Source: Planctomycetia bacterium (lineage in GTDB: Bacteria; Planctomycetota; Planctomycetia; Pirellulales; Thermoguttaceae). Taken from it: DNA of 64,000 nt. Shown piece after piece: positions 49,074 through 52,868 of the stretch. Where the stretch lies: the NCBI GenBank assembly GCA_030539295.1, contig JAUNSJ010000002.1, positions 62,001 through 126,000 on the forward strand, read 5' to 3'. Under the pieces are notes generated by a model. The model was given only the letters and a program-made list of their open reading frames with translations. It did not search any database and was not told the DNA's origin. How positions within the stretch are numbered: position 1 is the first letter of the stretch; every line of letters begins with the position of its first letter. A program made the translations under genes and the position numbers.

Positions 49074-49685
49074 TCACGAATCCGTGTCCGGCGTACCGGA
49101 GGTGGTCTCGTCTTCCGAAAGGTTCGTACCGGAATCGGCAGTCGGCCCAAGCTCAGGCGGCTTAACCCGAACACGGTCCAATATGCCATTGATGAACGGC
49201 AGTGACTCGCGGTCACTAAATTTTTTCGCCAACTCGAGGGCTTCGTCAATGACGATGGCTTTAGGGGTGCGCCCAATTTGCATTTCGCCAGTCGCCAGTC
49301 GCAGAATATTCCGCTCGGCCACTCCCATACGCGAAAGGTCCCAGTTCTTCGAAACGGCCGTTATAGCCTCGTCGATACGGTCACGATTCTCCTGCACATT
49401 ACGCACAAGGCGCCGCGTGAACGCTACCAGCGCGGTAAGTTCTTTGACCGAAAGAGGTTTCGTCTGGGGTAGTTCATCGTTTACCGGTTCGCCAGCACGA
49501 GCCAGAGCCGGGGTATCGTCAGGCGTGACTCCACATGTCAACTGATGTAACTCATTGTAAATAAAGTCATCGGCGTATTCCGAAACCAAACCGGGATTGG
49601 TGTCCTCCTGATATAAAATCTGAAAGGCAACCATGCGTGCATAACTGCGGGTGGGAAATCCGCCTGTTTTCTCTACCTCGGCCAT
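49074..49685 (-). CDS. nusB: transcription antitermination factor NusB
   Basis: The 203-residue protein has the NusB fold: RSYARMVAFQILYQED at the N-terminus, FTRRLVRNVQENRDRIDEAI, NWDLSRMGVAERNILRLATGEM and VIDEALELAKKFSDRESLPFINGILDRV. NusB with NusE (S10) binds boxA RNA for rRNA antitermination. It is about 50 residues longer than usual, with an internal insert near 40-70 and an acidic Ser/Thr-rich C-terminus. It begins 3 nt after the ribH stop and is coupled to it, the classical ribH-nusB arrangement. Confidence 0.94.
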   Translation of the reverse strand: MAEVEKTGGFPTRSYARMVAFQILYQEDTNPGLVSEYADDFIYNELHQLTCGVTPDDTPALARAGEPVNDELPQTKPLSVKELTALVAFTRRLVRNVQENRDRIDEAITAVSKNWDLSRMGVAERNILRLATGEMQIGRTPKAIVIDEALELAKKFSDRESLPFINGILDRVRVKPPELGPTADSGTNLSEDETTSGTPDTDS

Positions 49686-49688
49686 GAC

Positions 49689-50552
49689 TTATTTCTTGCC
49701 CTTTCTGCCCTTGGACGCGTGCTCACTTTTGGCATGTCCCGCAGACTTGTGTCCACTTCCGGATCCCTTACCCGAAGTGCGGTGCTCGTTATGACGGGGC
49801 TTGCCCGCATCCCGCTCCTCTTTGCGAAAGCTTCTGTTACCACGTCCGGAATCACGATTCCTCGCATCATAACTCTTTTTGTCACCACGAGATCCGCCAG
49901 GGAGAAACCAGCCGGGGTCGCTGCCTTCGTCCACCTCTTCGAATTCATCCTCGTCTCCATATTCTTCAACCGCGTCAAATTCGCCATTGCTATATCGAAG
50001 ACTGTTACCTGCCAGGGCCGACTCGGAAATCGTCATGGTTTCTTCCGGCAGAGGGGGCAGACTTTGCAGGAGATCAATCATCTCCAGTGCGGCCTGTGCC
50101 GACTCGGCGCCTTTATTGCCCGCCTTCGGGTTCACCACCTTGTCGTGCGTGCCCTCGCTCTGACCACTGCGAACGAGTGCCTGTTCCGTCGTCTCGCAGG
50201 TTAAAACGCCAAAAATAATCGGAATGCCGTTCTCAACGCCCATGCGAGCCAGCTCCGAAGAGACAGCGCGATTGATATGGCGGTCGTGACTCGTTTCCCC
50301 TTTAATAACACAGCCCAGACACACAACTGCTACATAGTCCTCATCCAAAGCAAATCGTTGTGCCAAAGTCGGAAGTTCAAAGGCGCCGGGCACCCAAGCT
50401 ACAGTAATCTGCTCCTCAGGAACCCCGCATTCCTGTAATTTACCTAAGGCACCATCCAAAAGTGGCTTCGTTATGCTCTCGTTAAAACGAGCGACAATAA
50501 TAGCAATCTTACCGTTCTGTGGCGGAACCGGCTTCCCTTCAAATATGTTCAT
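49689..50552 (-). CDS. ribH: 6,7-dimethyl-8-ribityllumazine synthase with long charged C-terminal tail
   Basis: ATG 50552 has GGAGTG upstream and starts [18 protein letters not shown], so it is preferred to the frame start at 50618. Residues 1-167 are the RibH core: [45 protein letters not shown] with catalytic His89, and [15 protein letters not shown]. RibH condenses the ribityl pyrimidine with butanone phosphate in riboflavin synthesis and usually forms 60-mer shells. The family is about 155 residues long; here about 120 more follow: an acidic stretch (191-213, rich in Asp and Glu) and then a basic tail (221-287, rich in Gly, Ser, Arg, Lys and His). There is also a 10-residue insert before GNKG. 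The tail function is unknown. Confidence 0.92.
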
Positions 50553-50639: not shown

Positions 50640-52868
50640 TCATTCCATCTTCAGACCCATAAGGAACTCGGCATTCGACTTCGTCTTGCCAAGACGTTGC
50701 GTTAAAAATTCCATGGCGTCCACCGGATTCATGTCGTTCAGCATTCTGCGTAGAAGAGTCATACGCTGGTGCTCTTCGTCGGTGCAAATCATCTCTTCGC
50801 GTCGGGTACCACTTCGTGTTATATCAATGGCGGGCCAGACGCGTTTGTCAACCAGAGCGCGATCCAGGCGGATTTCCAGGTTACCAGTCCCTTTGAATTC
50901 TTCAAAGATGACCTCGTCCATACGACTGCCCGTATCGACCAAAGCGGTCGCAAGAATCGTTAAGGAGCCACCCTCTTCCACCTTTCTGGCGCTGCCAAAG
51001 AGTTTTTTCGGTCGCTGCAGTGCGTTGGCATCCACACCTCCGGTAAGGGTTTTGCCCGAATCGGGGCATTCAGTATTCCAGGCCCGGGCAAGTCGCGTTA
51101 TGGAATCCAGGAAAATCACAACGTCCTTCCCATATTCCACCATGCGTTTGGCCTTCTCCAAAACCATTTCCGAGACCTGAATGTGACGACTGGGCGGCTC
51201 ATCAAAAGTTGAGCTGACAACTTCGCAATGCGGACCCTTGATCTGACGCTCCATGTCGGTCACTTCCTCCGGACGCTCATCAACGAGCAGCATGAAAACA
51301 TAGCTCTCCGGATAGTTCGTTAAAACAGCTCTGGCAATTTTTTGCATGAGAATCGTTTTACCGGCCCGAGGCGGACTGACAATCAGCCCTCGCTGACCAA
51401 AGCCAAGTGGAACAACTAAATCGACGACCCGCGTACTCATTTCACCGTCCGCGGTCTCCAGCACAATACGCTCGTTCGGGTGCATCGCGGTTAAATTGTC
51501 GAACAGGACTTTTTGCCCCAGCAGGTTGGGGTCTTCCCGATTGATGGCCTCGACGCGTAGCAGAGCGAAGTACCGTTCCCGCTCCTTCGGCGGCCGAATC
51601 TGACCGGAAATGGTAAGTCCGGTCCGCAGACCAAAACGGCGTATTTGGCTGGGAGATATGTAAATGTCGTCGGGACACGAGATATAATTGAAATCGGGAC
51701 TCCTCAGGAATCCGAATTCGTCGGGAAGAATCTCCAGGGTCCCTTCTCCAAACATAAGTCCGCTCTTGCGTATCCGCTCACGCAGAATGCGGAACATGAG
51801 GTCGTTACGCACTTCACCCTCGACGGTTGAAAGGTCTTGCGCCCTCGCTTCGGCGACCAGGTCCTGCATACTCATGTTCTGCAAGTCCGCAATGAACGAA
51901 ATGCGGTCCTTATCGGCCGGATTATTGGGATCCACTTCCGTCTCCACCTCGGGTACCGGCGGCTCTTCCGACCCGCTGGGCCCGGAAACATGCCAACCCT
52001 GCTTCTCTAACGCCAACTGCTCGGCTAAGGTAATCGGTTCACCGCGCCGTCCCCGAGCCCCGGTCTGCGGTTCCAGCTCCTCGCGGTAGAAGCCTTCTCC
52101 GGATCGACGGCGTATATAGTCGCTCATCGGGCGAGAGTACGATTGATTTGTGCCCTCACCCCTGTCGTTCTGGTCGCCGTCGGGAGAACCGGAGTAGTTG
52201 TATTGCTCATTCTGGGCGTGCCAAGACGGCTTCTGCCGCCACGGACGTGCGTTCCGGTCACGCCAGCCGCCACGGTCAGAACGGTCATCACGCGGTCCTC
52301 GATAATCCTGGTCCTCCCGGTAACCCCGGTTATCCCGCATACCACGGTCCCGATAGTCCCGGTCTCCATAACCCCGATTACCCGAGTCACCAGAACCTTG
52401 TTGACCCTCGTCTCGATTGCCCAGACGTCCGTCATTACGATTCTCACGCCAGGGACGCTCATAACGCCGACCCCGATGCCCATAATCCTCGTTGCCCTGC
52501 TCCTCATTACGCGGACTGCGGTCATAACGTGAATTGTCCAGCAGACTTCGTCCCTTAGTCCAGATACTGTCGCCGCGGTGTCGCTCCTGATAGTCGCGGG
52601 CAATCTTGTCGTCTGCGGTTTTGTCGTCCGACGTCCTGTTCTCGTCTTCAGAAGTGACCGCCGGTGCGGGGGAGCGGCGCGAACGTCGTGCCCGAATCGG
52701 CTCTGGGTCAATAGGACCTTCACTCGCAGACTCTGCGGCGCTTGACACTGCCTGGCCCGAATCCTGCTGATTCGGGGTTTCCGCGGAAAAGGCGTCCAAT
52801 TCCGACTCGGCACCAAAGATGCCTTCTCCAAAAGCTGTCTTTTTCTTTCGTAACGATTCCTTGGCCAT
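50640..52868 (-). CDS. rho: transcription termination factor Rho with long disordered N-terminal extension
   Basis: The last 418 or so of 742 residues form a complete Rho: N-terminal helical and RNA-binding domain ([57 protein letters not shown]), Walker [14 protein letters not shown] near residue 500, and the ATPase and Q/R-loop regions ([52 protein letters not shown]). Rho is the hexameric helicase that ends untranslated transcripts. The first 320 or so residues are low complexity, rich in Arg, Gly, Asp, Asn and Tyr (repeats such as [13 protein letters not shown]). Such extensions occur in Rho of Actinobacteria and Bacteroides. It sits 87 nt before ribH on the same strand. Confidence 0.96.

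Follow-up and report, generated by a model that had tools for sequence, protein, structure and literature searches.

A conserved, charge-segregated tail and a gate-loop insertion in the lumazine synthase of a Thermoguttaceae clade

The window (the whole 64,000-nucleotide stretch of DNA analyzed here) contains a ribH gene whose product, lumazine synthase, ends in a long disordered tail with an acidic block followed by a basic one. The enzyme itself is ordinary, and the conserved tail combined with an insertion in the gate loop has no earlier description in what we found; an open-literature search for lumazine synthase together with planctomycetes matched only a review of encapsulins. Our preferred reading, held somewhat short of even confidence, is that the tail is an outward-facing, charge-segregated disordered brush, which may gather RibH particles into clusters, both with each other and with polyanions.

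The enzyme core and the architecture of the tail

The ORF, profile matches, a structural model and a fold match all identify ribH (49689..50552, minus strand) as the gene for a 287-aa lumazine synthase with a C-terminal tail. Its ATG lies at 50552, with GGAG 10 nt upstream of the start, and the gene is single-copy in the 4.13 Mb genome. Pfam DMRL_synthase (PF00885) matches residues 14–161 at full length (E 1.5e-48; profile positions 3–138 of 139), and the TIGR00114 match exceeds the cut-off. The lumazine synthase core spans residues ∼1–167 (50052..50552), as judged from Pfam, alignment to 1rvv and fold match to 3mk3. In the alignment to 1rvv, residues F23, GAFE (56–59), H89, F114, R128 and K147 correspond to F22, GAFE, H88, F113, R127 and K135 of Bacillus subtilis, which we take to be active-site residues; on this basis, the active site is predicted to be intact. 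An AlphaFold2 monomer model gave pLDDT >90 for most of residues 11–160, with a doubtful loop near 139–141, and the top structural matches of the core are lumazine synthases (for 3mk3, Z 24.0 and rmsd 2.0 over 153 residues).

The first-pass annotation had described a core ending near residue 167 and a disordered tail of ∼120 residues, acidic at 191–213 and basic at 221–287. This description holds for the core and the tail length (ORF of 287 aa, Pfam match to 14–161), for the disorder (nearly all of residues 195–287 have pLDDT <50 in the AlphaFold2 model), and for the two blocks, which are borne out by residue counts and shuffles. The tail begins with a linker (residues ∼171–196; 49965..50040), drawn from AlphaFold2 and the clade alignment. 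A helix is predicted at 170–188, with low to middling model confidence, and the linker positions N183, Y187, G190 and F192 hardly vary across three genera. By composition count, the acidic block (191–213; 49914..49982) has 13 D/E and no K/R. WFLP, an aromatic/hydrophobic-proline spot (215–218; 49899..49910), sits at the charge boundary. The basic K/R/H/G/S-rich block (221–287; 49692..49892) holds 21 K/R, 5 H and 8 D/E. All these segments lie on the minus strand. For the tail as a whole, 22 K+R and 24 D+E nearly cancel. The expectation of thousands of extra basic side chains per 60-mer was thus too high: 60 copies would bring ∼1,300 K+R alongside ∼1,400 D+E, leaving the tails with a slight negative net charge.

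Related tails are 39 to 148 residues long. Across genera the order is the same: linker helix, acidic block, aromatic/hydrophobic-proline spot and terminal basic block. The spot occurs near the charge boundary in 44 of 50 tails, versus 24 expected from shuffles. Every genus has a lysine-rich terminal block, which is KKSTKKKKK-like in one of them.

We used shuffled sequences to gauge charge segregation, taking the best split for each tail. For the window's RibH, 2 of 2000 shuffles matched the observed segregation; for nearly all related acidic-then-basic tails the corresponding number was 0–16 of 2000, and for most it was 0. Tails with both blocks gave sequence charge decoration (SCD) z values of –3.9 to –24 versus shuffles. 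The charge blocks are segregated beyond composition, as in charge-block phase-separating regions. On a score for acidic-then-basic tails, RibH took first place among the 577 proteins sampled in its genome (929 kb of the 4.13 Mb) and among 116 in genome G011, in the latter far ahead of the next; genome G023 was left out of the ranking because ORF calls there favored spurious ORFs and RibH was unlisted. A general quirk of the proteome is ruled out as the source of the tail for the two genomes ranked.

Distribution, origin and selection of the tail

RibH is present in 103 of the 119 family genomes, and all 49 sampled members of one clade of Thermoguttaceae (Planctomycetota), for the most part MAGs from ruminant gut, carry a C-terminal extension, with both blocks in nearly all. 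The tail is found in the window's genus (all three other genomes) and in five more genera. The exceptions are L052, which stops after the acidic block, and L062, which has only a short basic tail. In a core tree of 86 RibH sequences, from which L052 was left out, the tailed sequences form one clade (support 100/95) and no reversal is needed. The sister group comprises one genus with an acidic-only tail (L084–L086) and one genus without a tail. The tail arose once, in a Thermoguttaceae clade. Those relatives that have names belong to Thermoguttaceae or are other planctomycete MAGs, and goat, water deer and rumen supplied most of the samples. A scan of genome contigs with a single RibH protein as query gave no match. 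A second contig scan yielded 80 RibH loci, 5 of them tailed and all of these in planctomycete gut-type MAGs; among the remaining 75, none exceeds 24 extra residues.

For close pairs, dN/dS was 0.05–0.47 in the tail versus mostly 0.01–0.09 in the core, so the tail is translated and constrained, though loosely. It is under purifying selection as protein, with charge order kept while the sequence drifts. The first-pass annotation had pointed to relatives as the place to look for an annotation or assembly artefact; the extension in every sampled clade member rules this out. Independent MAGs, the single origin and dN/dS <1 likewise exclude an artefact or frameshift as the source of the tail.

Gene neighborhood had been read as a hint of an RNA-related role, ribH lying between rho (50640..52868, minus strand) and nusB (49074..49685, minus strand), which starts 3 bp past the ribH stop. 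That hint falls away. Both are ancestral neighbors: the arrangement rho–ribH–nusB–ftsY is kept in relatives that lack the tail and in further families of the same order, and many tailed genomes (L007, L053–L055, L057, L058, L063–L068 and others) gave no match to either rho or nusB near ribH. A link between the tail and rho/nusB was rejected on these grounds. In Rho itself, the canonical domains follow an N-terminal extension of ∼320 residues that looks disordered and is rich in R, N, D, G and Y.

Several further sequence features were seen in these genomes. The acidic-only RibH tails of the sister genus (L084:1959-2642, L085:1959-2591 and L086:1959-2636) have DDNLPF or a similar sequence at their end, much like the tip of the C-terminus in single-stranded DNA-binding protein (SSB); the SSBs that these genomes encode finish in DDVPF, SDVPF or DDPPF. 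A like motif is internal in two tailed RibH proteins, as EDIPF (L055) and NDQLPF (L078). SSB is present in the other seven genomes searched and was not found in the window's own assembly, probably reflecting incompleteness (88%). The window's own genome also has a 1419-residue ORF (L223:5379-9638) with a long G/N/S/Y-rich low-complexity tail at its end.

The gate-loop insertion and the partner enzymes

By alignment, a family-wide loop insertion lies between helices 4 and 5 of RibH (residues 129–147; 50112..50168, minus strand), at the site of the gate loop (129–133) of Aquifex aeolicus lumazine synthase (AaLS) and of the yeast IDEA insert. There are 16 residues between the catalytic R and GNKG in the window's RibH. 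This spacing is at least 16 residues in Thermoguttaceae RibH versus 5 in 11 of 11 RibH of other families. Relative to 9ez8, 1c2y, 4v7g, 3mk3 and 1rvv, the window's protein has an 11-residue insertion, and it lacks the short gate loop common to all aligned icosahedral enzymes. The insertion predates the tail; it is family-wide and occurs in many Thermoguttaceae that have no tail.

The AaLS loop 129–133 switches conformation when the cage closes (PMC13376624). The gate-loop insertion makes an ordinary T=1 shell doubtful for the window's RibH. When the IDEA insert was moved from the yeast (ScLS) loop into AaLS, a 180-subunit capsid formed, not pentamers (PMC7369331); the assembly state of the window's RibH is therefore not readable from sequence. 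In lumazine synthases both the N- and the C-terminus face outward (PMC7369331), which would place the tail on the exterior of any particle.

Residues 200–207 of A. aeolicus riboflavin synthase (AaRS) are a cage-localization signal that anchors the enzyme in the cage (PMC13376624). The riboflavin synthase of the window's genome has 199 aa, its alignment to AaRS stops at AaRS 191, and it has no segment equivalent to this signal; it does carry a different, Trp-bearing helix at its C-terminus. The position of the AaLS R29 anchor appears to be P30 in the window's RibH and is variable in the clade, the correspondence being approximate. A C-terminal Trp was observed in 16 of 19 Thermoguttaceae riboflavin synthases versus 0 of 15 from the order's other families. 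It is borne on a C-terminal helix (e.g. VESQKWD) in L097, L101, L103, L109, L112–L114, L116, L117, L119, L122–L125, L206 and L207, and because of this helix riboflavin synthase might dock into a cage by another mode. Where the correct ORF was read, no matching tails were seen on riboflavin synthase or on RibBA and RibD of the genus; this survey leaves out L264 and L268, for which a wrong-strand ORF was taken, and the L267 ORF is unconfirmed.

Possible roles of the tail and comparison with known systems

How might a brush of this kind act? Each particle would carry 5 to 60 tails, and the acidic blocks of one particle could pair with the basic blocks of another. The exposed lysine-rich ends might also grip cell polyanions, such as RNA, ribosomes or the nucleoid. 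RibH would thereby be held in clusters or condensates, and clustering could keep pathway enzymes close where the gate-loop insertion hinders the ordinary closed 60-mer that encloses riboflavin synthase. Blockier charge in a disordered region is known to raise phase separation in Ki-67 (PMC9106583). Pairing between blocks received a test from charge covariation. Clade tails have a mean net charge of –3.0, and their blocks average 16.5 acidic and 13.5 basic net charges. Across genomes, acidic and basic block charge gave a raw r of 0.54, yet after phylogeny correction r was 0.07 (p 0.64). Selected matching of the two blocks was dropped for this reason, and the vanished correlation weakens the block-pairing model. 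A bolder version, which we regard as unlikely, is that in this gut planctomycete clade a membraneless compartment replaces the classic closed cage, the insertion blocking the cage and the self-pairing tail drawing RibH into condensates together with its partners or RNA.

Two other explanations are serious rivals to the clustering brush. In one, which we judge rather less probable than not but well worth weighing, the basic end would tether the enzyme to nucleic acid or ribosomes, and the acidic block, as an auto-inhibitory mimic, would tune the affinity; RibH would then be parked on RNA, ribosomes or the nucleoid via its outer face. The lysine-rich terminal block seen across the genera fits this proposal, as does the transcription-dependent confinement shown by B. 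subtilis RibH (PMC8414670), although that confinement was ascribed to crowding and arises without a tail (PMC8414670). Against a tether, the tail's net charge lies near zero or below it, a Pfam search of RibH found no known RNA-binding domain, and rho and nusB are uninformative as neighbors. In the other, which seems unlikely, the tail would serve as a brush with an entropic, solubility or anti-crowding role and no specific partner, and weak constraint on composition would keep it in place. The free divergence of sequence under a kept composition, the several-fold higher dN/dS of the tail than of the core and the wide range of tail lengths are all consistent with such an inert brush. But the acidic-then-basic order, the excess of the aromatic-proline spot and the near-invariant N/Y/G/F of the linker exceed what composition would give, and tails of this kind are rare in the same proteome.

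A third explanation is very improbable: that the tail is an assembly element, replacing lost pentamer–pentamer contacts or driving non-T=1 assembly (e.g. an expanded capsid), with the linker helix at an interface. The predicted, conserved helix, the family-wide insertion that predates the tail, and the 180-subunit capsid obtained with the IDEA insert would suit it; however, many Thermoguttaceae have the insertion and are tailless, so compensation for the insertion does not require the tail. Least credible is the natural cargo shell of the first-pass annotation, with tails lining a RibH shell and loading RNA, DNA or acidic cargo: engineered lumazine synthases with arginine-rich peptides do package RNA (PMC8537137; PDB 7a4f-7a4j), but these are circularly permuted AaLS with arginine-rich motifs (PMC8537137), native termini face outward, the acidic block cancels the basic one and the gate-loop insertion speaks against an ordinary T=1 shell, which leaves polyanion binding by the lysine-rich end as the part of that proposal that may stand.

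Lumazine synthase serves as the textbook example of an enzyme cage and is widely used as a scaffold for nanoparticles. The evolutionary series described here (no tail, acidic only, acidic plus basic) offers material for studying shifts between closed cages and open clusters.

Compared with the icosahedral lumazine synthases of A. aeolicus (1hqk), B. subtilis (1rvv) and Salmonella (3mk3), the window's RibH is alike in fold and active-site residues, with core identity of 41–46%. Those enzymes are tailless and have a short gate loop, whereas the window's RibH has the 11-residue loop insertion and the 120-residue tail. The pentameric yeast enzyme (1ejb) has an insertion at the same loop as the window's RibH ([21 protein letters not shown]), yet the insert sequence differs and there is no charged tail. 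In the AaLS–AaRS system (PMC13376624), the enzyme pair is the same and a C-terminal peptide governs higher-order assembly; there, however, it is riboflavin synthase that bears the signal, which binds at pentamer interfaces (PMC13376624), whereas here the extension is on RibH and riboflavin synthase stops at 199. The engineered nucleocapsids (7a4f-7a4j) resemble the window's RibH in having a basic peptide fused to lumazine synthase. They are engineered and circularly permuted, whereas the tail described here is natural, C-terminal and expected to face outward, and its acidic block precedes the basic one. Finally, Ki-67 repeats (PMC9106583), like this tail, have segregated charge blocks in disordered sequence; the sequences are unrelated, and the blocks of Ki-67 are made by phosphorylation (PMC9106583), whereas those of the window's RibH are encoded.
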